Shown here piece by piece: positions 7,879 to 24,173 of a stretch of 37,728 bases of DNA. A model generated the notes under the pieces. It saw only the letters and a program-made list of their open reading frames with translations, did not search any database and was not told where the DNA came from. The first letter of the stretch is position 1. The number at the start of each line of letters is the position of its first letter. The stretch is from Bacillota bacterium. Lineage in GTDB: Bacteria > Bacillota > Sulfobacillia > Sulfobacillales > JAIMBI01. The DNA lies in NCBI GenBank assembly GCA_021820465.1, contig JAKADP010000017.1, positions 1 through 37,728 on the forward strand, given 5' to 3'. The translations under genes were made by a program, and so were the position numbers.

Positions 7879-7916
7879 GGAGCGGGCAGGGCGTCACGGG
7901 AGAATGGAGGAACTCG

Positions 7917-9029
7917 GTGTCGATGGAGCGGACACACCGTTGGCCCCAGGAAGACCGCGAGGACGGTGCGGGGGCGCCCCCGGGGCTAACCGAGGAAGCG
8001 GCGCAGAAAATCGCGCGCATTATTTACCGCATCGCCGACGTGGAAGCCGTGGCCATCACGGATCGCCTCCGCATTTTGGCGTACACCGGCGGGGGCTGCC
8101 CCCACATGCGGCCCGGGGCGCCGGTGCAAACCCAGGCCACGCGCCGCGTGCTGGACACCGGAGCGCTGGCGCTGGTGCGCGACCGCGAGGAGTTGCACTG
8201 CCCCGATCCCGACTGCCCCTCGCCGATTCAGTCGGCGGTCGTGGCCCCGCTGCACGTGGGCGGCCGGGTGGTGGGGGCGGTGAAGCTCTATCGGACGGAC
8301 CCGGGCGACATGCCCCCTTACGCGACACGCCTGGCGCAGGGCATGTCGGAGCTGTTGAGCCTGGAGCTGTCGCTGGCCGAGTCGGAGCGCCAGCGGGAGC
8401 TGTTGGCGGAGGCGCGCCTCGATGCCCTGCAAGCGCAGATTCGCCCCCACTTTTTGTTCAACGTCCTAAACACGGTGATTGCCACGAGCCGGCAGGATCC
8501 CGAGGCGGCCCGGCGCCTGTTGACCGAACTGAGCCAATTCCTGCGATCCACGCTGTCGGACCACCGCGAGCAGACGACGCTGGCCGAAGATCTGGCGGTG
8601 GTGGACCTGTATTTGCGGCTGGAAGGCGCGCGCTTCGGCAGCCGCGTCAAGGCCACGGTCGATGTGGATCCGAGCCTGCTGGCGCTGCCGGTGCCGGTGC
8701 TGACGCTGGAGCCGCTGGTGGAGAATGCGGTCACCCATGGGGTGGCCGTCCGTGAGGCCGGGGACGGCATCGAGGGACATGTCGTGATCCGCGCGCGCCG
8801 CCGCGCGCGGGCGGTGGTCATTCTCGTGGCCGACAACGGGGTGGGCATGAGCCCCGATCGCGTGCGCGACGCGTTTCAGCCGCGCGTGGGGACGGGCCTC
8901 GGCCTGGGCTTGTGGAACGTGCGGGAGCGGCTTCGGGGCCGCGCCAGCCTCTCACTGAAGAGCCGCCCCGGGCGGGGCACGGTGGTGCGGCTTGCGTTTC
9001 CGGCGGCCGCCTGGGGGCCGCCCGCATGA
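7917..9029 (+). CDS. LytS-type sensor histidine kinase with GAF domain
   Basis: A 370-aa protein without clear transmembrane helices. Residues about 25-150 form a GAF-like sensor (QSAVVAPLHVGGRVVGAVKL). A short coiled segment leads to the His_kinase box QIRPHFLFNVLN with the likely phospho-acceptor H178. The HATPase domain shows LVENAVTHG, DNGVGM and GTGLGLWNVRERL. This is the LytS/YpdA class that pairs with LytTR regulators, and the next gene overlaps it by ATGA. GTG 7917 is taken because GGAGG ends six bases before it. The GAF region holds several Cys (GGGCPHM, LHCPDPDCPS) that could bind a metal or Fe-S cluster; that is inference. The kinase is probably cytoplasmic. Confidence 0.9.
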   Translation: MSMERTHRWPQEDREDGAGAPPGLTEEAAQKIARIIYRIADVEAVAITDRLRILAYTGGGCPHMRPGAPVQTQATRRVLDTGALALVRDREELHCPDPDCPSPIQSAVVAPLHVGGRVVGAVKLYRTDPGDMPPYATRLAQGMSELLSLELSLAESERQRELLAEARLDALQAQIRPHFLFNVLNTVIATSRQDPEAARRLLTELSQFLRSTLSDHREQTTLAEDLAVVDLYLRLEGARFGSRVKATVDVDPSLLALPVPVLTLEPLVENAVTHGVAVREAGDGIEGHVVIRARRRARAVVILVADNGVGMSPDRVRDAFQPRVGTGLGLGLWNVRERLRGRASLSLKSRPGRGTVVRLAFPAAAWGPPA

Positions 9030-9775
9030 CAGGCGATCGGGCGGTGCTGTCCGCCCTCATTGTGGATGACGAAGCGCCGGCCCGGGCCGAGCTGCGCTTT
9101 CAGCTGGAGCAGATTCCCGCGGTGCGGGTGGTGGGGGAAGCGGCCACCGCCAAAGAGGCGCTGGAGCTCATCCAGGCCGTGGGACACGATGTGGTGTTCC
9201 TGGACGTGGCGCTGGGCGGCCCTGATGGCCTGGAGCTGGCCGAGCAGCTCCGGCGCACCACGCCGGAGCCGGCCATCGTGTTTGTCACGGCCTACGACGG
9301 CTATGCCGTGGACGCCTTTCGCCTCGAGGCGGCCGACTATCTGCTGAAGCCGGTGGTGCCCGAGCGGCTGGCGGCCGCGGTGGGCCGAGTGCGGGGCCGA
9401 AGGGCATCGGCCGCGGGCCAGGTCTCCCCATCGCCGCCGCGGCGGTTTGTGGCGGGCTACGTGGACGGCCGCACCGTACCGGTGGCGCTGTCCGACGTGC
9501 TGTACTGCGAAACCGTCGAGAAGCACGTCGAGATGGTGGCCGTGGGGGGACAGCGCTACCTAGTGCGCGAGACGCTTCAGGCCTTGGAGCAGAGCCTGCC
9601 GCCCGATCTCTTTCTGCGATGCCATCGCGGCGGCCTCGTCAACTTGCTGCACGTCAGAGACATTCGCCCATTTTTCCATGGCACCTATACGATTCGCCTG
9701 GACAATGGCGACGAGGTGCCCGTGAGCCGGCGGCTGGTGCGCACCTTGAAGCACGCACTGCATCTGAAACGGTGA
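9026..9775 (+). CDS. LytTR-family response regulator
   Basis: A 249-aa protein. The receiver domain (1-125) has IVDDEAPAR, the phospho-acceptor D60 in VVFLDVALGG and K108 in LLKPVVPE. The C-terminal LytTR DNA-binding domain (about 145-245) includes LRCHRGGLVNL and NGDEVPVSRR. It starts at the ATG overlapping the kinase stop. LytTR regulators bind pairs of roughly 9-bp direct repeats; targets were not identified. Its stop codon lies inside the Crp/Fnr-type palindrome controlling the next gene. Confidence 0.93.
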   Translation: MTGDRAVLSALIVDDEAPARAELRFQLEQIPAVRVVGEAATAKEALELIQAVGHDVVFLDVALGGPDGLELAEQLRRTTPEPAIVFVTAYDGYAVDAFRLEAADYLLKPVVPERLAAAVGRVRGRRASAAGQVSPSPPRRFVAGYVDGRTVPVALSDVLYCETVEKHVEMVAVGGQRYLVRETLQALEQSLPPDLFLRCHRGGLVNLLHVRDIRPFFHGTYTIRLDNGDEVPVSRRLVRTLKHALHLKR

Positions 9776-10432: not shown

Positions 10433-11761
10433 ATGGAGAAAGCGTTTCAGGCCACCACGAGCGAGGCAGCATCGCCGCGCACGGCCTACAAGCCCAGCAT
10501 TAATGTGGCGCAGGCGCCGCCGATGGGGGCACCCCTGCTGTACGTGGCGGCGGCCTACGGGTTTCTGGCGGCAGCGGCCGTTCTCGCCGTGGTGAACGCG
10601 CCCTGGCTGGCGCGCGGAGACTATGCGAGCCCCCGCGTGGTGGTGGTGGTGCACTTGGTGACCCTGGGCTTTCTGTCGATGACCGCGATGGGCCTGCTGC
10701 AGCAGTGGGTCCCGGTGGTGTTGGACGTGCCGGCCGTCTCGATCCGTCGGGCGGCGTGGGGGTTTGCTGGGTATGCCCTGGCGGTGGTGGGGTTTGCCTG
10801 GGGCATCGCCCACCAGCAGGGGATGGTGCTGGGGATCAGCGGAATTCTCTTGGCGGCCGCCATCGTATGGTGGAGTGCAGGCGTCCTGACTCAGCTGGTG
10901 CGCTCCACCAAGCCGCGCGACGCCGTGCACTGGGGCATCGGGGCGGCGGTGCTGGGCTTCAACGCCACGTGGATGCTGGGGCTCTGGCTCGGGCTGGCGC
11001 TGGCCGCGGGGCGGCCCGGCGGCCCCGTGCTGCGGGTGCACATTGCCACGGCGCTGGTGGGATGGCTGGGGATTTTAGTGTTCACCGTGCAGTTGAAGCT
11101 CGTGCCCATGTTTGCGATGGCCAAGCTCACCGCAGCCGACAGCCGCCGCCTAGGCATGGCGCTGGGGTTGGCGGGCGCCGGGGTGCTGATCGCTTGGGTG
11201 TCGATGGGCGCGCCCCGGACGGTGGAGTCGATGGGCGCTGCCCTGTGGACCGCGGCCGTGATCCTGGCCATCATCCAGTTGGCCCGGGTGGTGCGGCGCG
11301 GGAAGACCCCGCGCTTCGATCGCGTGTTTGTCGGCGTCGCCGCCGGGTGGGGGCTCTTGCTGGCGGCCGCCGCCGCCTCGCTGTGGCTTGACCCCCTGGC
11401 CGTCGTGCTGGCACTTTGGGGTTTGATCGTCCTGATTTTCAGCTATCAGGCGCGCATCGTCCCGTTTATCGTCGCGGGGTCGGCCGCCAAGCGTCAGGCG
11501 GGTCCGCCGTTCAACGCCTTCTACCTCGCTCGGGCGATGCAGGCTGAAAGCCAGCCGGTGGTGGCCGCGGTGCTGGGTTGGGCGGGGGCCGTCTTGGCGG
11601 TGTGGGGGCAGGTGCGGGGCAGCCCAGGATGCGACGTGGCCAGTGGCCTCACGCTGCTGGGGCTGCTCGGCTGGCAGGTGGCCGGAGTGGGTGCGGCGCT
11701 CTGGCGCGGACGCCGGGGTCCGGTGCGGGCTCCGGCGGCGGGCGCGGGCCCCACCCTATAA
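10433..11761 (+). CDS. Twelve-helix heme-copper-oxidase-like membrane protein, paralog 1
   Basis: A 442-aa protein with about 12 hydrophobic helices after a 30-residue soluble N-terminus. Three times along the chain a helix ends in a Q/Y-rich turn with a Pro: MGLLQQWVPVV, VQLKLVPMF and YQARIVPFI. This matches the pseudo-threefold build of heme-copper oxidase subunit I. Two His are shared with the other paralogs, H74 (HLVTLGF) and H203 (HIATALVGW), and could ligate heme. The full active-site His set of true oxidases is absent. It is related in plan to NnrS/NorB/CcoN-type proteins; function unknown. It probably shares a transcript with the DUF2249 gene before it and the Crp/Fnr gene after it. 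Confidence 0.75.
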   Translation: MEKAFQATTSEAASPRTAYKPSINVAQAPPMGAPLLYVAAAYGFLAAAAVLAVVNAPWLARGDYASPRVVVVVHLVTLGFLSMTAMGLLQQWVPVVLDVPAVSIRRAAWGFAGYALAVVGFAWGIAHQQGMVLGISGILLAAAIVWWSAGVLTQLVRSTKPRDAVHWGIGAAVLGFNATWMLGLWLGLALAAGRPGGPVLRVHIATALVGWLGILVFTVQLKLVPMFAMAKLTAADSRRLGMALGLAGAGVLIAWVSMGAPRTVESMGAALWTAAVILAIIQLARVVRRGKTPRFDRVFVGVAAGWGLLLAAAAASLWLDPLAVVLALWGLIVLIFSYQARIVPFIVAGSAAKRQAGPPFNAFYLARAMQAESQPVVAAVLGWAGAVLAVWGQVRGSPGCDVASGLTLLGLLGWQVAGVGAALWRGRRGPVRAPAAGAGPTL

Positions 11762-11773
11762 TGGGTCGGGGGG

Positions 11774-12436
11774 ATGCCGATGACCGACGAGCGTCGGGCG
11801 GTGCCGCTCCTGGAGCTGATTCCTGCCGCCCACCGCGCCGAGACACTCGTCGAGCGCCGCTATCGGGCGGGGGACCACATCTTTCAGCAGGGAGAGGCCA
11901 CCACCGGGCTGTGGTTCGTGTTGGATGGGCGAGTGGCGGTGGAGCGCGTGGGCGCCGACGGCACCCTGAGCACCACCGGGATCTGGACCGCGGGCGACAT
12001 GGTGGGCATCGCCGGGCTGTGGGATCGGCAGGGCTACCCCGCCTCCGCCCGGGCGCTGTCGAGCCCCACGGTTATGGGCTGGCTGGCGCGGGACGCCGTG
12101 ATGCGCCTGCATCAGGAGGTGCCGGCGTTTGGCTTGGAAGTGAGCCGGCTCTTGGCCGAGCGCCTGCGCTTCGTGCAGGAGTCCGTGGCGGGCCGCCTCG
12201 GCCGGCCCATTGTGAATCAGGTGGCGGCGGTGCTGTGTACGCTGTCCGACCGGATGGGGCCATCGGTGGGCCTGACCCACGAAGACTTGGCCCACATCAT
12301 CGGCACCCACCGCGAGACGGTCACGCGGGCCCTGCACGCGCTGGCGCAGGACGGGGCGATACACTCGCGCCATGGGGCTGTGGACGTGCTCAATCGCCAG
12401 AAGCTGGAGGAGTGGCGTCAGGCGCCCGAGCGCTAG
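11774..12436 (+). CDS. Crp/Fnr-family transcription regulator
   Basis: A 220-aa protein (218 aa if the ATG at 11780, better spaced from the GGGGGG at 11767, is used). The N-terminal cyclic-nucleotide-binding-like beta-roll (about 15-120) has FQQGEATTGLWFVLDGRVAV; a dimerisation helix and a winged helix-turn-helix follow (LTHEDLAHIIGTHRETVTRAL). The Fnr N-terminal Cys cluster is missing and the only Cys is in VLCTLSD, so it is not an Fnr-type Fe-S sensor. It could sense NO through heme (Dnr-like) or another ligand. HTRETVTR-like recognition helices of this family bind TGTGA-type half-sites. It is the obvious candidate for the GTGAY-N4-RTCAC sites around it. Confidence 0.9.
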   Translation: MPMTDERRAVPLLELIPAAHRAETLVERRYRAGDHIFQQGEATTGLWFVLDGRVAVERVGADGTLSTTGIWTAGDMVGIAGLWDRQGYPASARALSSPTVMGWLARDAVMRLHQEVPAFGLEVSRLLAERLRFVQESVAGRLGRPIVNQVAAVLCTLSDRMGPSVGLTHEDLAHIIGTHRETVTRALHALAQDGAIHSRHGAVDVLNRQKLEEWRQAPER

Positions 12437-12464
12437 CCGGCCGGATGGGCGGGGGGCGTGCGCG

Positions 12465-12506
12465 GTGACCGCTGTCTCATCGCGCAGTTGGCCGGTTCTC
12501 TAGAAA
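12465..12506 (+). promoter_or_regulatory. Near-match Crp/Fnr-type site and -10 before the broken Rieske ferredoxin
   Basis: GTGACCGCTGTCTC (12465-12478) differs from the palindrome at one base. TAGAAA (12501-12506) starts exactly 29.5 bp from its centre. A small hairpin GCATCC/GGATGC follows at 12510-12526. Confidence 0.4.
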
Positions 12507-12648
12507 AAGGCATCCCGCATGGATGCGGGCTGGGCCCGTGGGATCCCGCCTTCCGCGGCCTCGGAGCCGGAGTGACCCGCCGCCCGCCGCCGAGCAACCA
12601 TCAGGCTGAGGGTCTGGCGGGGACCGGTTACGGGGAGGCGGGGGGCCA

Positions 12649-12909
12649 ATGGCTGAGACCACACCTGAGGCATGGGCCAAAGTGCCGCGGGAGGAAGACA
12701 TCGACCGTGGCCGGCCGCTTGGTGTCGTGTGGAACAACCGGGGGGTGGCGGTCTATCGCACGGCCGGCCCGTCTATGCCACCGGCGACACCTGCTCTCAC
12801 GCGGGTTCGCAGCGGACGCGCCATCAAGATGCCCGCCAACGCGCCCATCGAGGTATTTCCGGTCCGAGGGGATGGCGGCGATGTGTTTCTCGCCACCGAC
12901 GAGAGGTGA
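12649..12909 (+). pseudogene. Broken Rieske-type [2Fe-2S] ferredoxin
   Basis: The 86-codon frame begins like a small Rieske ferredoxin (MAETTPEAWAKVPREED, GVAVYRT) and ends like one (SGRAIKMPANAPIEVFPV). Between them the sequence continues in another frame as PVYATGDTCSHAG, the first cluster box, and the second box (CPxHGxxF) is absent. The simplest reading is a frameshift near 12765 plus a deletion of roughly 60 bp near 12810 joining the first box to the post-cluster strand. The product could not hold a Rieske cluster. A good GGGGAGG site and the Crp/Fnr-like promoter are still present, so decay may be recent. The intact form would have been a soluble electron carrier. Confidence 0.7.
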
Positions 12910-13069
12910 CGACGGTCAGGCGCCGACGGGGGGTCGAGGCCTGCTGAGGTGCCGGGCAGCGCCGCTCCGCGCCCACGGGGACCGGCACCGCCATCCGTTG
13001 CTGCCACGCGCGACTCGACTGGGCGAGGCCCTGCCTCATGCTCGTGGGTCCAACGGAGGGGTGGGGTCA

Positions 13070-13555
13070 CTACTCATTACTGATGCCCTCCGGCAAAATT
13101 AATGGCCACTGGCCCTGGTAGCCCACCATGGCGCGCACCTGGCTCTTGCTCGCCGACAGGCGATGGCGAGTCACCCCCTGTAGGGTGACGGTCACGATAT
13201 AGTGCAGCTGGGGTCGGGCAACCGTGAGTGTCTCCGATAGCTCGCCCCGCCGTGCATCGTAGCGCCACCGTGGCGGTCCAAACTTTGAAGCCTGCTGAGC
13301 CGTGACCTCACGTTCGACGACCGTCCACTGGGGTGTCGCTATCGTGGCCATGTTCGGGTGGCAGGGTTGGCGGCACGGAGACAGCTTTGTGCGGTGCCAA
13401 GCGGGAGTCTGGGGAAGATAGAAGGACAGAAAGCCGCCATATGGCGCCCGAACCAGCGTCCAGGCAGGCGGGCCCCCACACCCCAGAAGGGTCAACAGGC
13501 CTCCTGCGACGACCGCACAAAATGCGCTGACGCCGTTGCTTTTAGGGTGCAACAA
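13070..13555 (-). CDS. Putative lipoprotein of unknown function
   Basis: A 161-aa frame beginning at TTG 13555 (AGGGAG six bases upstream). Residues 1-26 are a lipoprotein signal with lipobox LLGC. The mature part has several aromatic stretches (GGFLSFYLPQTPAWH) and beta-like segments (LHYIVTVTLQGVTRHRL). No family is recognised. Codon use is visibly less GC-biased than that of neighbours, so acquisition by transfer is possible. It faces the DUF59 gene across a 406-bp gap. Protein reality is supported by the signal and ribosome-binding site only. Confidence 0.6.
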   Translation of the reverse strand: MLHPKSNGVSAFCAVVAGGLLTLLGCGGPPAWTLVRAPYGGFLSFYLPQTPAWHRTKLSPCRQPCHPNMATIATPQWTVVEREVTAQQASKFGPPRWRYDARRGELSETLTVARPQLHYIVTVTLQGVTRHRLSASKSQVRAMVGYQGQWPLILPEGISNE

Positions 13556-13961
13556 TAGAAGCTCCCTGGTCTGGAACGGGTGGCCCGGCGAAGGGCTTCC
13601 ATACTGCCGGCCACGGACCGGACATCTTCACCGTATCACCTCCGGGGGCCATCACAGGGCTGGGACGGCTCTGAGTCCAAGTTTAACCCACCGTTCGGGT
13701 GAACCCAGCCCTCTGCGGCACGGGCTGACGCGCGGGCATCAGCTGTGGTCCACCAGGGCCATGACGCCAGGGCGTCGCGTGGCCCGCGGGCGGGGCCCCG
13801 GACGATGCGCCGGCTGGACAGTTACCGCATCGAGAGCTCCGCGGACGTGCGCGTGGGACATGGCTGGCCTGTTTTTGGCCAAAGGGGCCGCACCGCCTTT
13901 GGTCGCGATGCCAGGTAGGCGAGAGCGCCGGTGCACAGGAATGCGCCGCCAACGGGATGGC
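13556..13961. other. Region without a convincing gene
   Basis: Open frames here are Arg/Pro/Ala-rich with no ribosome-binding site or recognisable motif. No palindromic regulator site, promoter or repeat was found. It is spacer between the lipoprotein start and the DUF59 stop. Confidence 0.5.
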
Positions 13962-14267
13962 CTACTCCAAGCCGAAGTGGCGCTTGGCTTCGTCGGACAT
14001 CATCGAGGGGTCCCAGGGGGGCGACCACACCACCTCGACGTCGACATCGTCCACTTCATCCATGGATAGCAAGCGCTCGTGCGTGCCGTTCTGGATGTAC
14101 TGGCTGGCGGGACAGCCCGGGGTCGTCATGGTCATCACCACCTCCACGCGGCTTTCCTGGACGGTGACGCCATAGATGAGTCCCAAGTCGACGATGTTGT
14201 ACCCAAGCTCCGGGTCAATGACGTCCTTCAGTGCGTCGCGCACCTGCTCAGCCCTAACCATGGCCAT
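13962..14267 (-). CDS. MIP18/DUF59 family iron-sulfur assembly factor (PaaD/SufT-like)
   Basis: A 101-aa protein, the usual size. It shows DALKDVIDPELGYNIVDLGL, then MTMTTPGCP with the conserved Cys, the signature of the MIP18/SufT/PaaD family that helps mature Fe-S proteins. The C-terminus has an acidic run EVDDVDVEVVWSPPW. ATG 14267 is taken; a second ATG two codons later is possible. It is divergent from the hemerythrin gene, and the 268-bp region between holds two Crp/Fnr-type palindromes. It may serve an Fe-S protein of the same regulon. Confidence 0.9.
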   Translation of the reverse strand: MAMVRAEQVRDALKDVIDPELGYNIVDLGLIYGVTVQESRVEVVMTMTTPGCPASQYIQNGTHERLLSMDEVDDVDVEVVWSPPWDPSMMSDEAKRHFGLE

Positions 14268-14350
14268 AGATGCCACCCTTCCCTTCGGTGCCGTGGTGCC
14301 TTCGGTGATGTCCGTGACGGCGGCTGCCTGCCGATCCAGCGGATGCACCC

Positions 14351-14392
14351 AGCATGGCCCCCGCAGAGCCCGTTCATCGTGACAGAGATCAC
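14351..14392 (-). promoter_or_regulatory. Crp/Fnr-type site and -10 for the DUF59 gene
   Basis: GTGACAGAGATCAC occupies 14379-14392. On the minus strand CATGCT (14356-14351) starts 29.5 bp from the site centre, so this palindrome is best assigned to the DUF59 gene. Confidence 0.5.
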
Positions 14393-14435
14393 CGGGCGCA
14401 CGAGAAGTCCCGCGGGCGGCGGGGTGTCCGGGGCT

Positions 14436-14479
14436 GTGACGACCGTCACCGCGGGGGCCGGCGCGCGGCGCACCATAGA
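14436..14479 (+). promoter_or_regulatory. Crp/Fnr-type site for the hemerythrin gene
   Basis: GTGACGACCGTCAC occupies 14436-14449. A weak -10-like CATAGA (14474-14479) starts 31.5 bp from its centre. The hemerythrin start is at 14536. Confidence 0.5.
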
Positions 14480-14535
14480 GGCAGCGAGGCAGTCGCCCCG
14501 GGCGATCGGCCATCGAGTGAGGGAGGCGCTGCGGA

Positions 14536-15003
14536 TTGGATCTCATCGAGCAGCTCCAGAGTGAGCATCAAGAATACGTGCGAGAGCTGGCCGAGTTGGC
14601 AGAAATCGTTGAGGGGATTCGCGTGAACGGACGCGGCGGGTACTTCATCGTGAGCCTGGATGCGCTGGTGGAGCCGCTGACTACCCAATTGGACGCGCAC
14701 GCGTCCCGGGAGGAGGCCTGGGTGTTTCCGCGCCTGGTGGAACGGGCGCCCGGCAGCCCGGTGGCACTCATGCTGGAAGAGCATGGGGCCATTCGCGCGC
14801 ACAGTGCACGCTTGGCCCGCTGGTACCCGGCTTGGCGTGCGGGCGCTGACGAGGCGTACCCCAAGTGGGCCGAGGCGGCCCTAGAGCTGCGCGGCCTGCT
14901 GTCCGCGCACATGCAAAAGGAAAACCTGATCCTGTTTCCCTTGGCGCGGCGTGTGATGACGGCCGCAGAGCTGTCCGAGTGGGCCGCGCTGGGCGAGCCG
15001 TGA
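14536..15003 (+). CDS. Hemerythrin HHE domain protein
   Basis: A 155-aa four-helix protein with the diiron ligand pattern LQSEHQEY, DAHASREEAWVFP, LEEHGAIRAH and SAHMQKENLILFPLA. Hemerythrin-like proteins of this type bind O2 or NO, or deliver iron in Fe-S repair (RIC/YtfE group). The RIC N-terminal domain with its Cys pair is missing here. The start is TTG 14536, with GGGAGG nine bases upstream. It is divergent from the DUF59 Fe-S assembly gene and lies behind a Crp/Fnr-type site, a context typical of nitrosative-stress genes. The ligand was not determined. Confidence 0.9.
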   Translation: MDLIEQLQSEHQEYVRELAELAEIVEGIRVNGRGGYFIVSLDALVEPLTTQLDAHASREEAWVFPRLVERAPGSPVALMLEEHGAIRAHSARLARWYPAWRAGADEAYPKWAEAALELRGLLSAHMQKENLILFPLARRVMTAAELSEWAALGEP

Positions 15004-15102
15004 CGGCGCCGCGGTCTTACGCTCATGGAAGTCGCCAAGCGCCGAGGGGCTTCAGCGCGCGCCGATGCCGAGGACGTTCGGCGGGTGACGGCGTTCCCCC
15101 GG

Positions 15103-15144
15103 GTGACATCGATCACGGTTCGAGCCGGCGGGGCGATCCATCGT
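15103..15144 (+). promoter_or_regulatory. Crp/Fnr-type site and -10 for the cupin operon
   Basis: GTGACATCGATCAC (15103-15116), with CATCGT (15139-15144) starting 29.5 bp from its centre. The gene start is at 15221. The remainder of 15004-15220 shows no convincing gene. Confidence 0.55.
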
Positions 15145-15220
15145 GAGGCGGCAGGCCGCCCTCCAAAGGTGGTCCGCGATGGCTGGCCCATGGTCCCGCC
15201 AACAAGGAGCGTGAGACATC

Positions 15221-15568
15221 TTGGTGTGGAATGTGAACGACCCCGAACTGTATCATCCGGACCATCTGGTGGTGCGGCACATGTTTGATGCCGATCAGGC
15301 GGCCGTCGTGTGGTTTGGCTTCCAGGCCGGCCAGGTACTGAAGGACCACGAGACGTCCAGCACCGCGCTTATTCAGGTCCTCCAAGGCCGCATCCGCGTC
15401 AATGCGGTCGAGGAGCGCGTGCTGTCGGCCGGACAGACCGTGGAACTGCCCCCTGGAGAGCGTCATGCGCTAACGGCGCTGACGGACGCCTTGGTGCAGT
15501 TGGTGCTGGTGCCTCATCCGCGCTATCACAGCCTTGGGCAGGAGCTGGGGATGACCACGCGCCCCTAA
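15221..15568 (+). CDS. Cupin-domain protein
   Basis: A 115-aa single-domain cupin. Motif 1 is around AGQVLKDHETSSTALIQVL and motif 2 around GQTVELPPGERHALTAL, giving His and Glu residues suited to bind one metal. The start is TTG 15221 (AAGGAG about 11 bases upstream) or the next GTG. Small cupins of this kind often sit with Crp/Fnr-controlled stress genes, but the reaction cannot be told from sequence. It is 58 bp before the second 12-helix gene and is probably in the same operon. Confidence 0.82.
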   Translation: MVWNVNDPELYHPDHLVVRHMFDADQAAVVWFGFQAGQVLKDHETSSTALIQVLQGRIRVNAVEERVLSAGQTVELPPGERHALTALTDALVQLVLVPHPRYHSLGQELGMTTRP

Positions 15569-15626
15569 AGGGGCGGCGTGACGCGGCCCCGGCACCAGCG
15601 GTCGAAGGAGAGGGGGGAGGGCACGC

Positions 15627-16907
15627 ATGCGGGGAGTGCGGCTGTCTCGCTGGAGCATGAGCTACTTTGCCGCGGCGTTGACCTCACTCATCCTGGCTGA
15701 AGTGCTGTGGGCGTCGGGGCTGGCTGATCCTCTGGCGAGCATCGGGGACCCCTGGGTGCTGGTGGGGGTTCACCTCACCACACTGGGCTTTCTCACTCTC
15801 CTGATGATGGGCGCGCTGCACCAGTTCGTGCCTGTCCTGACCGAGACCGAGCTGGCGAGTCAGGGAGCATCCGGCGCCACGCTGGCCGCGGTGGCCGTGG
15901 GCCTCGCCTTCATGCTGCTGGGCTTCCTGGCGCTGCCAGGCGGCGCCTTGCCCGTCATGGTGTGGCTGCTGCCCGTCGGGGGCAGTCTCGTGATTCTGGG
16001 CTTGCTGGTGGCCGCGGTGAACTTGGGCATCACGCTGGGGCGGGCCTGGCCCTGGACCCTCTCCGCCTGGTTGGTGGCCACCGGCCTCGCGTTCCTGCTG
16101 GCCACGGTCGGCGCCGGCCTGCTGCTGGCGCTGTCGCTGGCCGCGCCCGAGCTCCTGTCGCGGACGCTTCTTGCCGCCGTCGTCGGACGCGGGCTGGCGG
16201 CGCACGTCATGGGAGGGATTGGCGGGTGGCTCACGCTCACGGCGATGGGGGTGGCGTACAAGCTGCTGGCAATGTTCACGCTGTCGGATGAGCATCGCGG
16301 GGCCCTGGGCTGGGGGGCCTATGCGGTGACCGCCACGGGCCTCGCGCTCGCGTGGGCGGGCCGTTGGCTCGGCCCGAGCCCCTGGGAGAGATGGGCGTGG
16401 ATGGCGGTGCTGGTAGGCTTGGCTGCCTATGTGGTGGACATGCGGACGCTCTACCAGACGCGCAAGCGTCGCCCGTTGGAGCTGAACGCGCGCTATGGCC
16501 TGATCCCGCTGGGATTTCTGGCGAGCCTCATCGTGGTTGGCGTGGTGCTGTATCGGGACGGACTCACCCCGCGGGCGGAGCTCGCGGTCGCTTTCTGGGC
16601 GCTTTATGGGTGGGTGGGGGGGCTGGCACTGACTCAGCTGTACAAGATCGTGCCGTTTCTCACCTGGCTGAACGCGTTTGGGCACCAGATGGGCAAGAGT
16701 CGCGTGCCCCGTGTGCAGGATCTCGTCGACGAGCGGCGAGACCGCTATGCCTATTGGGCGTACTTTGCCGCGGTGGCGCTGGGGGGAGCCTTTTTGTCCC
16801 TGGGGTGGTGGGAGGCGTTTCGCGCGGCGCTCGCGCTGGCGCTGCTCGCGACGCTGGACATCGGCCGCGCCCTGCATCACGGGGCGCACCCCGTGCCGTT
16901 AGGTTGA
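15627..16907 (+). CDS. Twelve-helix heme-copper-oxidase-like membrane protein, paralog 2
   Basis: 426 aa, about 12 helices. The three repeat turns are MMGALHQFVPVL, MGVAYKLLAMF and LTQLYKIVPFL. The shared histidines are H49 (HLTTLGF) and H193 (AHVMGGIGGW). An additional His occurs in the first turn (LHQF) where the other paralogs have Q or Y. A polar loop (DEHRGALG) and a basic loop (TRKRRP) separate the bundles. It follows the cupin behind the palindrome at 15103. It shares the plan, not the full ligand set, of heme-copper oxidase subunit I. NnrS-like heme binding is possible. Confidence 0.75.
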   Translation: MRGVRLSRWSMSYFAAALTSLILAEVLWASGLADPLASIGDPWVLVGVHLTTLGFLTLLMMGALHQFVPVLTETELASQGASGATLAAVAVGLAFMLLGFLALPGGALPVMVWLLPVGGSLVILGLLVAAVNLGITLGRAWPWTLSAWLVATGLAFLLATVGAGLLLALSLAAPELLSRTLLAAVVGRGLAAHVMGGIGGWLTLTAMGVAYKLLAMFTLSDEHRGALGWGAYAVTATGLALAWAGRWLGPSPWERWAWMAVLVGLAAYVVDMRTLYQTRKRRPLELNARYGLIPLGFLASLIVVGVVLYRDGLTPRAELAVAFWALYGWVGGLALTQLYKIVPFLTWLNAFGHQMGKSRVPRVQDLVDERRDRYAYWAYFAAVALGGAFLSLGWWEAFRAALALALLATLDIGRALHHGAHPVPLG

Positions 16908-17026
16908 AGGGATCTCCACCGATCGGGCCGCGCGCGGCCGCTTCCGCGCCCCGAGGCGCCCCGACGGCAAGCCGCTCTGGAACAAGCGCTCAGGAGACAG
17001 GTCTGAGGAGGCGAGAGGAGAACAGG

Positions 17027-17503
17027 ATGGAAGTGACGGGGAACCTATGGGAAGCTTCTGGTGATGTGGCCGCCTTCGCGACGCGCGTCTCGCGGTGGCG
17101 CTCGCAGGCCGATGGGCGGAGTCGCCTCGTGGTGGTGGGCGTCCGGGCGTGGATTCAAGCGCTGCTGGCGGTGAGCCCCGCCGAAAGCCGCGAGGTTTAC
17201 GCGCCGGAGGGCGCGGACGGCTCGATGGCCGTGCGATGGGCGTCTGAGCCGGCGTGTGCCAAGACGGCTTGGCAGGGCGAGGAACACCGTGCCCTGCTGC
17301 TCATCCTGCAGGACGCGCTCATCGCCGTGGCGGAGCAGGACGCGGATCGGGCCGCACGGCTCGCCGCACGTGCGTGGGTCAACCTGAAGACGGATCCCAT
17401 CGGGCAGCGCCGCTTTGATGGCCTGCTGCATCGCTTCACCGGCGTGCTGCACCGCGGGCCACGCGCCAGTGCCTCAGAACGGCCCGATCCCCCTGCGCGG
17501 TAG
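17027..17503 (+). CDS. Hypothetical protein (158 aa)
   Basis: A soluble protein with no recognised family. It is mostly predicted helical, with an Ala/Arg-rich C-terminal helix (QDADRAARLAARAWVNL) and a conserved-looking middle segment, EGEEHRALLLIL-type. The ATG at 17027 has GAGAGGAG upstream. The 119-bp gap after the 12-helix gene has no palindrome, so it may belong to the cupin operon. Function unknown. Confidence 0.65.
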   Translation: MEVTGNLWEASGDVAAFATRVSRWRSQADGRSRLVVVGVRAWIQALLAVSPAESREVYAPEGADGSMAVRWASEPACAKTAWQGEEHRALLLILQDALIAVAEQDADRAARLAARAWVNLKTDPIGQRRFDGLLHRFTGVLHRGPRASASERPDPPAR

Positions 17504-17527
17504 GATGGGCCCATAGCCGGTGAGTTT

Positions 17528-17569
17528 GTGATCCGCGTCACGCCGCCGCGGGCGCGGGGCGGACACCCT
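17528..17569 (+). promoter_or_regulatory. Crp/Fnr-type site before the second DUF2249 gene
   Basis: GTGATCCGCGTCAC (17528-17541) is a perfect match to the local consensus. The hexamer at the expected distance is poor (CACCCT, 17564-17569). The DUF2249 start is 160 bp downstream. Confidence 0.45.
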
Positions 17570-17701
17570 GGTGGTGGGCGGCAAGCGCCGCGCTTCCTGC
17601 TCGCAGCTGGCGGCCATCTGGCAGGTATGGACGAAGGTGCGCAGCTGACCATCTGCAGGATAGAACGTTAGAGAGTGTGTAAGGTAGAGGGAGGCATTTT
17701 C

Positions 17702-17935
17702 ATGGCCGATCCCGTAATCATTATCAACGCTCCGCTGATTCCCCCGCCGGTCAAGCATCAGGCGATCTTAGCCGCTTTTGACGCGGTCCCCCAGGGCTTT
17801 TCAGCCCTACTGATCAACGACCATGACCCTAAGCCCCTGTTGTATCAGCTGGACGCGGAGCAGCCGGGCGTGTTTGCGGTGGAATATCAGGAGCGGGGGC
17901 CAAGCCGGTTTGCCATCGTGGTGACGCGAACCTGA
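17702..17935 (+). CDS. DUF2249 protein, single domain
   Basis: A 77-aa protein, the full length of one DUF2249 domain. It has the family hallmark LINDHDPKPLLYQLD and a closing FAIVVTRT strand. The ATG has GGGAGG upstream. DUF2249 proteins have a TusA-like fold and recur beside hemerythrins and nitrogen-oxide reductase genes, but their activity is not established. It is followed by a perfect 23-bp inverted repeat. Confidence 0.88.
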   Translation: MADPVIIINAPLIPPPVKHQAILAAFDAVPQGFSALLINDHDPKPLLYQLDAEQPGVFAVEYQERGPSRFAIVVTRT

Positions 17936-17946
17936 TCGAGCGACTC

Positions 17947-17998
17947 ATCCCCAGTCAAGCGGCGGGGGCCCAAGAGCCCCCGCCGCTTGACTGGGGAT
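17947..17998. repeat. Perfect 23-bp inverted repeat, six-base loop
   Basis: The arms at 17947-17969 and 17976-17998 are exact complements (outer ends ATCCCC and GGGGAT, inner ends GGGGGC and GCCCCC) around CCAAGA. Neither side carries a T-tract. It lies 12 bp after the DUF2249 stop, so a terminator, mRNA 3' stabiliser or insertion/recombination footprint are all possible. Confidence 0.8.
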
Positions 17999-17999
17999 C

Positions 18000-18013
18000 G
18001 TGACCGTTGCCAC
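18000..18013 (+). promoter_or_regulatory. Near-match Crp/Fnr-type site
   Basis: GTGACCGTTGCCAC differs by one base from GTGA-N6-TCAC. No clear -10 lies at the expected distance. It is 48 bp before the next start. Confidence 0.3.
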
Positions 18014-18060
18014 AGCGGGCGACCGCAGGATCGCGAGACTGGACTTAGGAGGTGGAGATC

Positions 18061-18549
18061 ATGGTTCATGCCGAAGCCCCGGTCTGGGATGGCCGCGAGT
18101 GGCACTGCCGCGTGGCGGTGCGAGAGGGCGTGTATGAGCGCGCCGACTACCCGGTGACCCTCACGTACCTGGGGCCCATCGCCGGCGCGGAAGACAGCGC
18201 GGCTCTTCTGGATGCCATTCGGCGCGTCGTGGAAGGCGTGGTGGCAGCCCATCTGTGGAAGGGAGCGCTGGCGCCCGCCGGGATGTTGGTGAACTGGCGC
18301 GAGCAACAGGATGAACGGTTTGCCGGCCAGGGGTTGGACGCCGTCCGGGCGCTGGCGGATTGGGTGGACGCGCGGGTGGGGCGCATGTCCCACGCCGATG
18401 GCCACGGGTACTATCATGCACGGGACCGCCAACCGACTATGAAATATGGAAAAGATCAAGATGGGAACCCCCCTGCGGTGGCGGGCCGGGAGCTGGGAGC
18501 GTGCGAGTCGCCCGTGCTGACCCAGCCCGCGCTGGCGTCGAGCGCGTGA
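18061..18549 (+). CDS. Hypothetical protein (162 aa)
   Basis: A soluble protein of no recognised family. Residues 1-100 look ordered, with beta-rich WHCRVAVREGVYERADYPVT and then helices AALLDAIRRVVEGVV. The last 50 residues are polar and probably disordered (HGYYHARDRQPTMKYG). The ATG at 18061 follows an AGGAGG eight bases upstream. It is convergent with the third 12-helix gene, 38 bp apart. Confidence 0.65.
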   Translation: MVHAEAPVWDGREWHCRVAVREGVYERADYPVTLTYLGPIAGAEDSAALLDAIRRVVEGVVAAHLWKGALAPAGMLVNWREQQDERFAGQGLDAVRALADWVDARVGRMSHADGHGYYHARDRQPTMKYGKDQDGNPPAVAGRELGACESPVLTQPALASSA

Positions 18550-18587
18550 AAGGCAGGTGACAAGGCCCGTTGAGCCATCTCGTGTCC

Positions 18588-19934
18588 TCACGAAGAGGAT
18601 GGCGGGCGTCCGCGACGCGATCCGGGCAGATGGCGCCGGTGTCGCGCCACCACAATCATGCGCACCCCCATCACCCCGACCCACGACTGGACCGCCGCGA
18701 GCACAACGACACCGGCCTGAATCACCGGAGCCAGCGCGAGCCCCAGCCCCGCCGCCAGAAGCCCCACACCGCCGGCCGTGAGCCAGGGACTGACCCGGCT
18801 GGCCTCAGAGGGCCAGAGTTCTTCCAAGTGGGGCAGCGTGCGGGCGTCGCGGCCACGCGCTGTCGCCGTCCACACCATGAACGGCCAGATGCGCTGTCCG
18901 AAGCCGAGGATGGCGGCCAAGAACACGCCCAGCACGAGGGCCGGCAGTGCTGCCGCCAGCCCGCGCGGATGCGGATACAGAAGAGACTGCAGGCCCGTCA
19001 GCGCGACCAGCACCAAAAGAATGCCGGCGAGCTGCACCAGCCGGATGCCGGGGTCCGGACGGCGCGCTCGGTGGGTCCGCCAGTCCGCGGCCCGGTCGGA
19101 CAGAAACATTCCCGTGGCGCCGAGACCCAGCACGACGGCCGCCGCGAGCGCCAGCGACACGCCGAGAATGCCGACCGCGGCCAACAGGATGGCCGCGTTC
19201 ATCGCTACCAGCACCGCGCCGGCGCGCTGCGGCTTGACCCGGGACACCACGAACATCGGAAACAAGCGGTAGGATACCCCCCAAAGCGTGAGACCCAGCC
19301 ACCCGGCCACGGCCACCACGATATGCAGCGCCAGCAGCCGGGACGGGCTCACCCGAGCGAAGTGCACGAGACCGGCGTCCAACACCAGGCCCAGCACCAC
19401 GGTGAGAGCGAAGTACATCAACCCGGCCTTCACAAACAGAAGGGGCAGCAGCGCCCGGTCGGATCCTCGGATCGTGGCGGCCATCACGGCCAAGAAGAGG
19501 CCCGCCCCGACCGCGAGCAGGCTGCCGCCGACGGCCATCAGCAGGGAGTTGGCTTCCCCGAGGCCAGCAATAAAGCAGAGCAGCGCGAGGACCCACGCCA
19601 CGAAGTGGCCACCGGCCAGCGCGGGACTGGCCAAGGGGCGCCCCGTGATGACCGGGACCCACTGGTAGAGCATCCCCATGACGGTGCTGGTCAGGAACCC
19701 CAGGGTGAATGTGTGCACGGTAGCCAGCACGGCCGGCTGGGAAAAATGAGCGTGAGCTAAGGCGGGGGCATTGGCGGCGGCCAGCGAGAACCCCACCAGC
19801 GCACTTACCCAGCCAACGACCAGAAACCGCAGGGGGATGGTGAGCGCAGGGGCGGCGCCCGTCGAAGGCTTGCCCATCTGCCAGCGCCCGGACCGGCGGC
19901 CCGGCTGACTGGGCCCGTTGGGCATGTAGGGCAT
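18588..19934 (-). CDS. Twelve-helix heme-copper-oxidase-like membrane protein, paralog 3
   Basis: 448 aa, about 12 helices after a 30-residue polar N-terminus. The repeat turns are VMGMLYQWVPVI, LWGVSYRLFPMF and ILGFGQRIWPFM. The histidines aligned with the other paralogs are H74 (HTFTLGF) and H204 (LHIVVAVAGW). It is closest to paralog 1 in spacing (129-130 residues between the two His). Unlike the other two it lies on the opposite strand, and no GTGA-N6-TCAC site was found before it, so it may be controlled differently. GAGAGGAG supports the start at 19934. Function unknown; heme binding inferred. Confidence 0.75.
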   Translation of the reverse strand: MPYMPNGPSQPGRRSGRWQMGKPSTGAAPALTIPLRFLVVGWVSALVGFSLAAANAPALAHAHFSQPAVLATVHTFTLGFLTSTVMGMLYQWVPVITGRPLASPALAGGHFVAWVLALLCFIAGLGEANSLLMAVGGSLLAVGAGLFLAVMAATIRGSDRALLPLLFVKAGLMYFALTVVLGLVLDAGLVHFARVSPSRLLALHIVVAVAGWLGLTLWGVSYRLFPMFVVSRVKPQRAGAVLVAMNAAILLAAVGILGVSLALAAAVVLGLGATGMFLSDRAADWRTHRARRPDPGIRLVQLAGILLVLVALTGLQSLLYPHPRGLAAALPALVLGVFLAAILGFGQRIWPFMVWTATARGRDARTLPHLEELWPSEASRVSPWLTAGGVGLLAAGLGLALAPVIQAGVVVLAAVQSWVGVMGVRMIVVARHRRHLPGSRRGRPPSSS

Positions 19935-20396: not shown

Positions 20397-20824
20397 CTAT
20401 GTCGACGGGTGCTTTACGGTCAGGGTGGCAAAGTAGGTCCCACATATGCCGCGGTCCCATGTCAGCAGCGCCGAGGTGACCACCGAGGCATGCGCCCCGA
20501 TGAAAAAGTCCGCCAGGATGTGCCGGGGGCCACCGATGCGCGCTCCGCCGCGCGCCGGCGTATGACATATCTCTGCCAAGCCGATGCGGCGGCTGGCAAA
20601 ACGGCCAAGGGCATTTGGGTGTCCACTTCGATTCCCATGCCGCTCAAGAGGCGGTAGACGCTGTTCTGTGGGCGCGCGGCACACAACTCCGCATACACGA
20701 CACTGCTGGCCAGCACTGGCCCGGCGGAGAGCGCCTCCCGCAGGGCCTGTGCCGCGGCGATGGCCCGGGGGCCGCCGATGAAGATCTCCGAGAGGACGTT
20801 GGTGTCCACCGCCGTTCCAATCAC
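20397..20824 (-). pseudogene. PIN-domain (VapC-like) toxin, frameshifted
   Basis: The frame from GTG 20824 begins with VDTNVLSEIF (catalytic Asp) and YAELCAA (Glu), typical of PIN nucleases. After about residue 90 the match moves to a second frame, GPRHILADFFIGAHA then LLTWDRGI, ending at 20397. Together they form a complete PIN domain, so there is a single frameshift near 20545 in a GC-rich run. This is either real inactivation or a base error. It overlaps the antitoxin stop (GTGA). PIN toxins are Mg-dependent RNases that usually cleave tRNA or rRNA. Confidence 0.75.
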
Positions 20825-21093
20825 AGGTCGGCGGGCCCCCGCAGGTCCTCAACCAGCGCGTCGCCCGTTCGGTAAGAAACCTGGTCTCGCCAAATGCCGA
20901 TGAACGGCTCAAGGGCCGGCACTGGGCGGACAGGTGCCACCGTTATGCGGCCCTGGGCGTCCATGGAAAACTGTACTTGGGCCCCGGCCTTGATGCGCGC
21001 GGAGCGCATGAGAGCCACCGGCAGGGTAACCTGGTTTTTCGAGCTGACGCGTCCCTGCCTAGCCGTCGTTCCATCGCCCATGTGATCGCCCAT
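20821..21093 (-). CDS. AbrB/MazE-type antitoxin of the PIN toxin
   Basis: A 90-aa protein with an N-terminal SpoVT/AbrB swapped-hairpin domain (RVSSKNQVTLPVALMRSARI, then AGAQVQFSMDAQGRITVAP) and a C-terminal tail (SYRTGDALVEDLRGP) that would block the toxin. The ATG at 21093 or 21081 is possible; both have weak ribosome-binding sites. The stop overlaps the toxin start by GTGA. It likely represses its own promoter. Confidence 0.82.
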   Translation of the reverse strand: MGDHMGDGTTARQGRVSSKNQVTLPVALMRSARIKAGAQVQFSMDAQGRITVAPVRPVPALEPFIGIWRDQVSYRTGDALVEDLRGPADL

Positions 21094-21908
21094 GCACGAT
21101 AGTAAAGAGATAGGCCCAAGGAGTCCAAGGAGGAAACCGTATATTTTGCGGTGCCGGTGCGTCGGCAGCACGGGTGGACGCGCCCGAGGACTTGGCCAAG
21201 CATCTGTGACATCGGGGTAGGGTCATAGACGGGGGGCGGCTTCGCGCCGGGCGGGGGGTGCCGAACTTCTTTGATGAGTGCGGTCGACTGTGCGACGGCA
21301 TGCGGTTTCGGAGATGGCTTGCCCCGGTGCGGCGCTGGCTTACGAGGAAAAGTGGTTGTCGGGCCCAGCCCGGTCGGGCGGGCGGGATGGGGATGAGACT
21401 GACCGGGGGTATGAGCGGGCACCTGGGCGGGCCAGGGCAAGCCGGTGGAGCGTGGAGTTTCCACGCAGCTCGGACGGCGCGGCCATGCGCGGCGGGTATG
21501 CCATCCGGGCTGCTGCCCGCGCGTGGTCATAGGGCCGGGGCCGAAACGGCTGGCGACGAAATCGGGCGGGTGCAGCTCCACGCACCTGTGGCAGTTCCCT
21601 CGGAATGCCGTGCCGGCCCCCTTCCGATATTTCCATGGCCCGTGCGTGCGTCAGCGCCTAGAAGCTGCGCCGCGGCCGGAGGCGGCCATGGCTGGCGTGC
21701 AAGCCACCGCTGTGCCGCTACCCGAGTGAGGCCCGGACGGCCAACCCCTAGTGGGTACACGGGCCAGAAGGCGGGGGCCGGCCTCCGACCCCCGGTGGCT
21801 TGTCGGTGCAGATGGTGCGCTTGGTCACCGACGAGCCGCCCTTGACCCTTGGGTGGTACGCTGGCTCAAAGAGCGCGGCGTCGTCGCTCGCAAGACTGGG
21901 GGTGCCTC
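21094..21908. other. Region without a convincing gene
   Basis: About 800 bp in which all open frames are Arg/Pro/Ala-rich, with no ribosome-binding site, conserved motif or repeat that I can see. It contains the antitoxin promoter region on the minus strand and the start region of DUF488 on the plus strand. Confidence 0.45.
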
Positions 21909-22274
21909 ATGCCGGACGGATGGCCTGAGATTCTGATGGGCCGGGTGGGGGATGCGACCGCGCCGGGCGTTCACCGGGTGCTCGTGGACCGCCTATGGCC
22001 CCGCGGCGTGGCCAAAGCTGCGGCGCCGTGGGACACTTGGCTCAAGGACGTGGCGCCCACCGCCGCGCTCCGAACCTGGTATGCCCACGATCCCGCCCGC
22101 TGGGAGGAATTCTGCGAGCGCTATCGGCAGGAGCTGGCCGACGGCGGACACCAGGCTGCCATCGCCCAACTTCGGGCTATCTGGCGGCGGCAGCCCGTCA
22201 TGCTGGTGACGGCCACCCGTCATATCGAGCAGAGCCAACTGCCCGTCCTGCGGGCGTTTCTTCAGAACCCGTAG
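21909..22274 (+). CDS. DUF488 family protein
   Basis: A 121-aa protein with the DUF488 pattern RVLVDRLWPRGVAK, then WLKDVAPTAALRTWYAHDPARW, EEFCERYRQEL and a final LVTATRHIEQSQLPVL strand. The family is widespread and of unknown function. The ATG at 21909 is taken; a GTG two codons earlier is possible. Its stop directly abuts the stop of the convergent lipoprotein (TAGCTA, no spacer). Confidence 0.88.
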   Translation: MPDGWPEILMGRVGDATAPGVHRVLVDRLWPRGVAKAAAPWDTWLKDVAPTAALRTWYAHDPARWEEFCERYRQELADGGHQAAIAQLRAIWRRQPVMLVTATRHIEQSQLPVLRAFLQNP

Positions 22275-24173
22275 CTACAGAGACCCCGGCGGCGCGCTTT
22301 GCACCTGGGGAGGGCTGTTGGGGCCCGTGCCCGGCGTGAACCACCAGAGCCGCCCCGACGCCACCGTAAGGTCCTGGGCGCTGGCGGGCAGGACGGAGGG
22401 CGGGACGGCCTGCCAGTGCGAAGCGCCTGGGGACAGGACGTACCAGGTTGGCGTGTCTGTCGAAGACAGGGTGCTGCCCAGCAGGGCGCCGTTGGGCAGC
22501 ATCACGAGGGCCTGATACACCTGGGCGCCTCCTTGCGCGCTGGCGGCGGGCGGGTTGGGCACCGCCACGCTTTGCCACGTGCGTCCCTGGTTGGTGGTCA
22601 TCTCCACGGGGTAGGCGCGCTCACTGTCGATGATGAGGGCGTCGCCGTTGGCGAGTCCCACCAGCTGCATCGGAGCGAGCGCTATCTCACCCTGGGTCGA
22701 CGATACCCACTGGTGCGCGTGGTTTTCACGCCACACCGTTTGGATCACCGCCGCGCCCATGCCGGGATCGTTGGTGGGCCCGGGCCCCAACAGCAGGCAC
22801 GGGCCTGCGGCGGGGCAGGTCAAGGGGCCCGCGATCCAGCTGGCGCCGCCATTGGCGGTGAACTCGGCCTTGGTGCGGCTGCCTGCCGTCCAGAGCGCAT
22901 ATTCGCGCGAGCCCACCGCACGATAGCCGGCGAAGCTGCCAAAGGTCATCCCCGGCGGGATGGGCACCGGGTGCCACGTGGCACCCCGGTTGGTGGAGTA
23001 AAACGGGCTGTAGAAAATGGGCGGGCCGCCCCCGTACGGCGGCGGGGCCGTGTCCACGGTGATGAAGAGGCTATCAGGGAACCCGGCCACGCCCCGCGCG
23101 CTGGCGACCCGCACGGTGCCGCCGCCGTTCGTGGCCGGGTAGCCGAGCCGCGCGGCCTGCGGCGCTATGCCTCCCAGTGGCACCGGGGCCAGCGCCCGGG
23201 GCGATCCCATTAATAGGGACGTGCCGTTGAGTCCGGGGGTTGCCACCTCGGTGCCGACGACGGAAAAGGGGGCAGGCTCGGCACTCAGGCGCACGGGGGC
23301 CGACCGGATGGCGGCCCACGACAGGCCCGCCACCACGGAAAAGTGGGTCGGCGCGAGGATGACCTCTGCGTCGGGCGGCGGGGACTTGGCTCCCGAGTTC
23401 TTGGCCGGGGTCCCCACATTCGCGAACAGGTACGACAGCGTGACGGTCACCGGGCCCGGCGCGACCGGACGGCCATTCGCGTAGGCGGGGACCGTGAAGT
23501 GGCCGGACAGCCGTCCCGTCAAACTTTGGTGAATCGTGGCGACTGGGGGGCCGGATCCCCACACCAGCTCATACCCGAAGGGGCCGAGGGCGCCGATGAT
23601 GTTGGTGAGCGGGGCCCAGCCCGATACCGCCACCGCCTGTCCGGGTGCCGCGCGGGCCGGGGAGAAGCTCAGGTACGCGCTTGCCGGGGCGGCCGCGACA
23701 GGACCCGTGACCGTGAACGTGCCCCGCCCCTGCGCCGGGCCTTCGGCGCAGCCTTTGGCGATGGGGCCGAGGCAGCGAATCGCCACGGTGACGGGCCCGG
23801 GGGTCAGGCGCTGAATGCCGCCCGGGGCCAGCCACGCCGTCCGGGGCACCTGGAAAGTGACCGTGAAGTGCCCAGGATGACGGGTGGACCAATGAAGAGC
23901 GTCGGGACTGATGTCCAGGCCCCGGGCCAGTCCGCCAAACCGAATGTCACCGCCATACCGCCACTGTTGGCGCTGCTGGGCGGTCGCGGACCGCATCGCC
24001 GCGACATACCCGGTGATGGTCACGGGCGTGCCCGGCGGGCCCGATGCCGGAGTCAGCGTGAACTGGCGCGAGGCCGTCGCGGAGGCCGCCGGCCGGCCGC
24101 ATGCCGCCAGCAGGGCCATAGACGCCACACACAGGAGGAGCTCCCTGATGCCCCATCGTCGCTCAGCGGTCAC
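22275..24173 (-). CDS. Surface lipoprotein with Asp-box beta-propeller
   Basis: A 632-aa protein. The N-terminal lipoprotein signal ends in LLAAC. Two or three Ig/IPT-like segments (about 35-260) have the TPASGPPGTPVTITG pattern. A BNR/Asp-box propeller follows, with the boxes STNRGATWHPV, TANGGASWIAG and TTNQGRTWQSV. It is therefore an outer-face protein. Asp-box propellers occur in sialidases, photosystem II assembly factor Ycf48 and sortilin-like proteins, and no glycosidase catalytic residues are evident. Function unknown; ligand binding is likely. Confidence 0.85.
   Translation of the reverse strand: MTAERRWGIRELLLCVASMALLAACGRPAASATASRQFTLTPASGPPGTPVTITGYVAAMRSATAQQRQQWRYGGDIRFGGLARGLDISPDALHWSTRHPGHFTVTFQVPRTAWLAPGGIQRLTPGPVTVAIRCLGPIAKGCAEGPAQGRGTFTVTGPVAAAPASAYLSFSPARAAPGQAVAVSGWAPLTNIIGALGPFGYELVWGSGPPVATIHQSLTGRLSGHFTVPAYANGRPVAPGPVTVTLSYLFANVGTPAKNSGAKSPPPDAEVILAPTHFSVVAGLSWAAIRSAPVRLSAEPAPFSVVGTEVATPGLNGTSLLMGSPRALAPVPLGGIAPQAARLGYPATNGGGTVRVASARGVAGFPDSLFITVDTAPPPYGGGPPIFYSPFYSTNRGATWHPVPIPPGMTFGSFAGYRAVGSREYALWTAGSRTKAEFTANGGASWIAGPLTCPAAGPCLLLGPGPTNDPGMGAAVIQTVWRENHAHQWVSSTQGEIALAPMQLVGLANGDALIIDSERAYPVEMTTNQGRTWQSVAVPNPPAASAQGGAQVYQALVMLPNGALLGSTLSSTDTPTWYVLSPGASHWQAVPPSVLPASAQDLTVASGRLWWFTPGTGPNSPPQVQSAPPGSL

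Follow-up and report, generated by a model that had tools for sequence, protein, structure and literature searches.

Proteins with homology to heme-copper oxidases (HCOH proteins), a group that includes NnrS and was reportedly delineated by Pei et al. in 2014, are said to consist of three units with 12 helices, to keep mostly two conserved histidines (His) and possibly to hold a single heme. They reportedly resemble oxidase helices 9-12 best and are tied to denitrification and to nitric oxide (NO) detoxification. Here we analyse three related genes, P1, P2 and P3, on a contig of 37,728 nucleotides (JAKADP010000017.1, assembly GCA_021820465.1; hereafter the window) from a Bacillota bacterium of the order Sulfobacillales. 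Three homologous four-helix units and two conserved histidines are found in P1-P3 as they reportedly are in the HCOH proteins, and by our analysis P1-P3 are most likely single-heme members of that group; 12-helix, two-histidine oxidase homologs tied to denitrification are, by the same account, said to be a kind of protein already described. The three open reading frames lie at the coordinates and on the strands given in an initial annotation of the window made from its sequence alone:

10433-11761, plus strand: P1, group A copy, two-histidine oxidase-fold membrane protein, 442 amino acids (H74, H203)
15627-16907, plus strand: P2, group B copy, membrane protein, 426 amino acids (H49, H193)
18588-19934, minus strand: P3, group C copy, membrane protein, 448 amino acids (H74, H204)

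The family differs from each of its closest relatives of known type. CcoN (3mk7, 8smr) has its whole collinear fold in common with P2 and weak profile similarity to the family, but CcoN has six ligand histidines, while the family has two and is without the CuB and helix-X ligands. The whole fold of NorB (4xyd, 3o0r) is likewise common to P1 and P2, and NorB is often encoded near family genes; however, NorB has an FeB site that the family is without, and the family occurs both in genomes with NorB and in this genome, which is without it. NnrS (PF05940) has weak sequence similarity to the family and shares its gene neighbourhoods, but the NnrS alignment contains invariant H65, H67, H282 and H309, compared to only two histidines in the family, and the two are separate genes side by side in the Rhizobium etli, Mesorhizobium loti and Sinorhizobium meliloti clusters. 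We considered and rejected the identification of P1-P3 as NnrS; P3 scores 12.8 bits against a PF05940 cut-off of 28 bits, P1 and P2 have no match to that model, and the comparison of whole profiles is weak (E 0.14).

Fold, threefold repeat and kinship

Template-free AlphaFold2 models of P2 (predicted local distance difference test score, pLDDT, 95.1; predicted template modelling score, pTM, 0.94) and P1 (pLDDT 91.0, pTM 0.90) each contain 12 long helices. The P2 model matches CcoN (8smr) along its whole length with the helices in the same order (Z 36.8, 3.2 Å over 392 residues), and matches NorB (4xyd) end to end and collinearly (Z 36.0); a Foldseek comparison supports the same end-to-end match, and no NnrS structure is among the matches listed. 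Similar results were obtained for P1, which matches NorB 4xyd (Z 32.1) and CcoN 8smr (Z 32.0) end to end. The oxidase-subunit-I plan proposed in the initial annotation is borne out by these models and, because the matches to CcoN and NorB run end to end, a fold unrelated to heme-copper oxidases, the outcome that had been set against the proposal, is excluded for P1 and P2. Thus, P1-P3 almost certainly share the fold of subunit I of the heme-copper oxidases, with 12 membrane helices, as predicted by modelling for P1 and P2 and by homology for P3.

The proposed pseudo-threefold plan is likewise upheld. When the family profile is cut into three (residues 1-142, 143-284 and 285-426 of P2), the pieces align with one another at E values of 1.6e-7, 1.8e-6 and 3.4e-7, well beyond reversed controls, which gave 0.0017 or worse. 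The repeated helix ends described earlier are present in P1 (QQWVPVV, QLKLVPMF and QARIVPF), and P2 and P3 have counterparts of them. Judged from sequence, each protein is composed of three homologous four-helix units. Compared with NorB, the unit 1 profile finds its best match around helix X (E 1.4e-6), while the match of unit 2 to this region is weak (E 0.0019) and that of unit 3 (E 0.011) is no better than reversed controls; unit 1 also matches the third unit of NnrS (E 9e-4). Units 1 and 2 of the family profile match CcoN helices VI-X, although the structural match is nonetheless collinear. Because the sequence profiles pair units 1 and 2 with later oxidase units, an origin permuted relative to the oxidases and a collinear one are equally possible, and the threefold pseudosymmetry makes a circular permutation indistinguishable here from a collinear match.

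As had been noted, the family falls outside standard annotation, since no Pfam or NCBIfam model recognises P1, P2 or P3 above its cut-off in single-sequence searches. Against Pfam COX1 (cut-off 34.8 bits), P2 scores 17.1 and P3 scores 21.4 (E 1.2e-4), and P1 has no match; a search of the PDB with the P1 sequence also found no match. When a profile of 72 family sequences was run against the PDB, CcoN of the cbb3 oxidase came up at E values of 6e-4 and 1e-3, and single family members reach Pfam COX1 down to E 4.5e-8 and NnrS down to E 5e-4.

The three proteins are indeed paralogs. P3 is linked by BLASTP to both P1 (E 1e-18) and P2 (E 1e-14), and P1 and P2, for which the direct match is weak (E 0.011), are joined through P3 and common relatives. 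A quick tree, which has several long branches and some unsettled forks, separates the copies into ortholog groups A (P1), B (P2) and a smaller C (P3), with group B being the one present in Proteobacteria.

At least 511 relatives are present in bacterial and archaeal genome contigs. Of these, 80 were retained; they come mainly from Sulfobacillus and its relatives and from many Alpha-, Beta- and Gammaproteobacteria (including Bradyrhizobium, Afipia, Mesorhizobium and Polaromonas), with a few from other groups. Plasmid copies occur in Rhizobium, Sinorhizobium, Thermus, Aliarcobacter (Campylobacterota) and the haloarchaeon Haloprofundus and, wherever annotated, are called ‘hypothetical protein’; no homolog of P3 was found in plasmids. 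The family was detected in 41 of 61 related genomes, mostly with two to four matches each, and three copies per genome is usual in the order and not peculiar to this window. In a sample of the window's phylum, 9 of 199 genomes carry the family; an alignment mixing all groups was too diverse for a genome scan. On an Aliarcobacter butzleri plasmid (L180, 7461-9000), a family gene and a MIP18 gene lie between transposase genes, which marks this copy as mobile.

Two invariant histidines and a candidate heme site

Exactly two histidines are invariant across 95 relatives, H74 and H203 of P1 and their equivalents, and a wider second set of 72 members has the same two and no other. The pairs aligned in the initial annotation (H74/H203 in P1, H49/H193 in P2 and H74/H204 in P3) are therefore correct, with one histidine in helix 2 and the other in helix 6. 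Helices 7 and 10 carry no conserved histidine in either set. With two invariant histidines in place of the six of the oxidases, and with the HxH motif of helix X not conserved, the family is without a CuB/FeB site, in agreement with the earlier remark that the copper site is missing. Membership in the catalytic heme-copper oxidases or NO reductases was also considered, and was rejected because the copper/FeB ligands and the helix-X histidines are unconserved.

The position of the two histidines suggests what they might hold. In the alignment to the HxH motif of NorB, H49 of P2 (unit 1) falls on the second histidine and H193 (unit 2) on the first. The distances to the proline position at the helix end are 20 residues for H49 (to P69) and 22 for H193 (to position 215) in 72 of 72 members, and by hand count the HxH pair of the CcoN encoded in locus L148 has the same two spacings. 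In the oxidases, helix X lies between two pores, and each histidine of this motif faces a different one of them. Given this arrangement and the pseudosymmetry, H49 and H193 of P2 should face one shared pore where units 1 and 2 meet; under the collinear match this would be the pore left empty in oxidases. The most likely cofactor is a single b-type heme, bound by the two histidines at the junction of units 1 and 2; both the heme and its place are inferred. If the heme is located there, all three pores of the oxidase fold would have been used in evolution.

Gene neighbourhoods and proposed function

The window encodes a set of soluble proteins and regulators around P1-P3, among which are the DUF2249 and hemerythrin genes pointed out in the initial annotation:

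7824-9029, plus strand: GAF and LytS-type histidine kinase, 5' of the P1 cluster and possibly part of it
8912-9775, plus strand: LytTR response regulator, possible member; homologs adjoin P1 orthologs in loci L088 and L089
9840-10370, plus strand: two-domain DUF2249 protein (PF10006, 84.5 bits, two stretches), ending 62 bases before P1
11774-12436, plus strand: Crp/Fnr-type regulator, 12 bases 3' of P1, a conserved neighbour
13962-14267, minus strand: MIP18/SufT-type metal-sulfur cluster assembly factor (PF01883, 70.4 bits); start estimated, as the reading frame extends to 14546 and the conserved part starts near 14267
14536-15003, plus strand: hemerythrin-domain protein (PF01814, 62.9 bits) with weak likeness to the iron-sulfur (Fe-S) repair protein RIC/YtfE
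15221-15568, plus strand: small cupin (PF07883, 31.1 bits), directly 5' of P2 and conserved there
17675-17935, plus strand: single DUF2249 protein with an NDHDPxPL motif (PF10006, 70.7 bits)
18052-18549, plus strand: conserved protein of no known family beside P3 (cluster c8, 7 loci; no Pfam match)

Every DUF2249 gene of this genome is located in this window. A DUF2249 gene immediately 5' of the group A copies is a conserved feature, being a neighbour in 24 loci. In the MIP18-type proteins a cysteine is conserved in 60 of 61. The likeness of the hemerythrin-domain protein to RIC/YtfE amounts to 38 bits against TIGR03652, far below the cut-off of 204.7.

The association with DUF2249 and MIP18 extends well beyond this order. 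In a wider set of 80 loci, with flanks that end where contigs end, a two-domain-type DUF2249 gene is present in 58 and a MIP18-type gene in 62; NorB (14 loci), NnrS (14), NosR (7) and Crp/Fnr matches (21) also recur. On R. etli plasmid p42f the order is norCBQD-hemN-DUF2249-family-DUF2249-MIP18-nnrS-nirK, and the same order is seen on S. meliloti pSymA. In Aminobacter and M. loti the family gene lies in a nos cluster, and in Haloprofundus it is near nirK and three DUF2249 genes; in Thermus, the order is narGHJI-transporter-DUF2249-DUF2249-hypothetical-protoglobin-family-MIP18. In Thermus JL-18 (L179, 6574-8923), the family gene sits between the protoglobin and MIP18 genes, downstream of nar and DUF2249 genes. 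Group B copies of the Sulfobacillus order are near genes for an Mrp/NUBPL ATPase, a ferredoxin, a Rieske protein and a NuoF-like protein. A widespread ‘hypothetical protein’ family gains a fold, a candidate ligand pair and a constant set of partners.

Among related genomes, narG is found in 23 of 41 with the family compared to 1 of 20 without it, and outside the order in 3 of 3 compared to 1 of 16 (P 0.004), counts that ignore shared ancestry within the order and treat genomes that are not independent. Six contigs carry narG or nirK no more than 4 kb from a family copy. The initial annotation had proposed a membrane heme sensor, an NO-handling protein or an electron-transfer system; the link to nitrogen oxides in this proposal stands, by gene context in other organisms, while its three roles differ in likelihood.

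We put at about even the chance that P1-P3 are membrane heme proteins that work in defence against NO. The putative heme would bind or turn over NO, or pass electrons, at the membrane, while the soluble partners, DUF2249 and the MIP18-type factor, would protect or rebuild Fe-S centres; an Mrp/NUBPL ATPase, hemerythrin and ferredoxin may be further partners in some genomes, and any contact with these neighbours is a prediction. A role in Fe-S protection or rebuilding under NO is favoured because of the MIP18, Mrp and hemerythrin neighbours and because of the literature on NnrS and DUF2249. NnrS reportedly shields iron in the cell's pool against conversion to dinitrosyl-iron (work of Stern et al. 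2013, cited in PMC11526790). Denitrifying Haloferax has raised levels of DUF2249 proteins, among them a P-loop Fe-S carrier that contains a DUF2249 domain, and the work of Pei et al., according to the same source, ties DUF2249 to the heme-copper oxidase superfamily (PMC11218638). The Thermus DUF2249 proteins DrpA and DrpB are required for nitrate respiration and have been proposed to be nitrate sensors (PMC6282519). Among the papers available to the search, none connects DUF2249 to NnrS, and none connects Sulfobacillus to hemerythrin and NO. If the NO and Fe-S role is true, it would explain why the denitrification clusters of both bacteria and archaea contain genes for DUF2249 and MIP18 proteins. 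A more specific version is possible but doubtful: that the heme occupies the third pore, the one at the junction of units 1 and 2 that is cofactor-free in known oxidases, and forms the NO-facing part of a conserved Fe-S protection machine of DUF2249, MIP18-type and Mrp proteins, with three specialised copies in the Sulfobacillus order.

Several observations weigh against a role in NO defence. This genome has no narG, no NirK and no NorB, and just two oxidase-type COX1 genes, although these absences are tentative because the assembly is fragmented (165 contigs, 96% completeness). Even among related genomes with the family, narG is present in just the 23 of 41. A scan for FNR-type boxes gave two sites with one mismatch, which also arose in 23 of 100 shuffles and are at chance level, and nearness to denitrification genes does not prove NO binding. 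Since this genome shows no narG or NirK, denitrification itself is not the common denominator, which could instead be NO stress or Fe-S damage. A scan of relatives for NnrS found none, but control genomes gave no match either, so absence of NnrS is not established.

The regulators in these neighbourhoods raise the alternative of a membrane heme sensor that passes an NO or O2 signal through Crp/Fnr, DUF2249 or the GAF/LytTR pair. The Crp/Fnr gene just past P1, the kinase and LytTR genes upstream, the Crp/Fnr matches in 21 of the 80 wider loci and the sensing role proposed for DrpA and DrpB all point this way; however, family members carry no fused signalling domain, regulators are commonly found near denitrification genes, and the MIP18, Mrp and hemerythrin neighbours suit repair better, and we regard a sensor as unlikely but not negligible. 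A single heme could also carry electrons between quinol and a soluble partner in nitrate or nitrite respiration or in Fe-S assembly. A low-spin heme with two histidine ligands is the usual site of electron transfer, the histidine spacing also suits the low-spin pair X/II, and the ferredoxin, Rieske and NuoF-like genes near group B copies would fit such a carrier, but one heme alone provides no route across the membrane and the neighbours differ among lineages, which leaves this role improbable.

The remaining two explanations are the least likely. A role without heme, in which the histidines bind something else, for instance in assembly or transport of a metal or nitrosyl compound, is hinted at by the MIP18-type partner and its tie to metal-cluster assembly, but both histidines are in registers that hold hemes in the oxidases, and we consider it very unlikely. 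Slightly more remote still is the reading that these are enzymes, divergent NO reductases or oxidases in which the active site has been rebuilt: the NorB-like fold and nearby nor genes speak for an enzyme, while the two-histidine pattern with its absent CuB/FeB site speaks against one, and the presence of nor genes alongside the family argues that the role of the family is not simply that of NorB.

Other features of the window

In single-domain DUF2249 proteins the NDHDPxPL motif is near-invariant, as is an upstream histidine (49-50 of 50), and this conservation suggests a metal or ligand site. No oxidase partner subunits are encoded in the window, and searches of the window for RNA families and tRNAs found none. 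There is also a gene for a DUF488 protein (21849-22274), seen again close to family genes in 11 of the order's loci and in 14 of the 80 wider loci. At 20465-21171 on the minus strand, a small PIN-domain protein is encoded beside a MazE/AbrB-type protein, both slightly below the Pfam cut-offs, and the two look like a toxin-antitoxin pair. The minus-strand gene at 22275-24173 encodes a 632-amino-acid protein with weak BNR repeats, and two tandem homologs occupy the same place in a locus of the same genus (L053).

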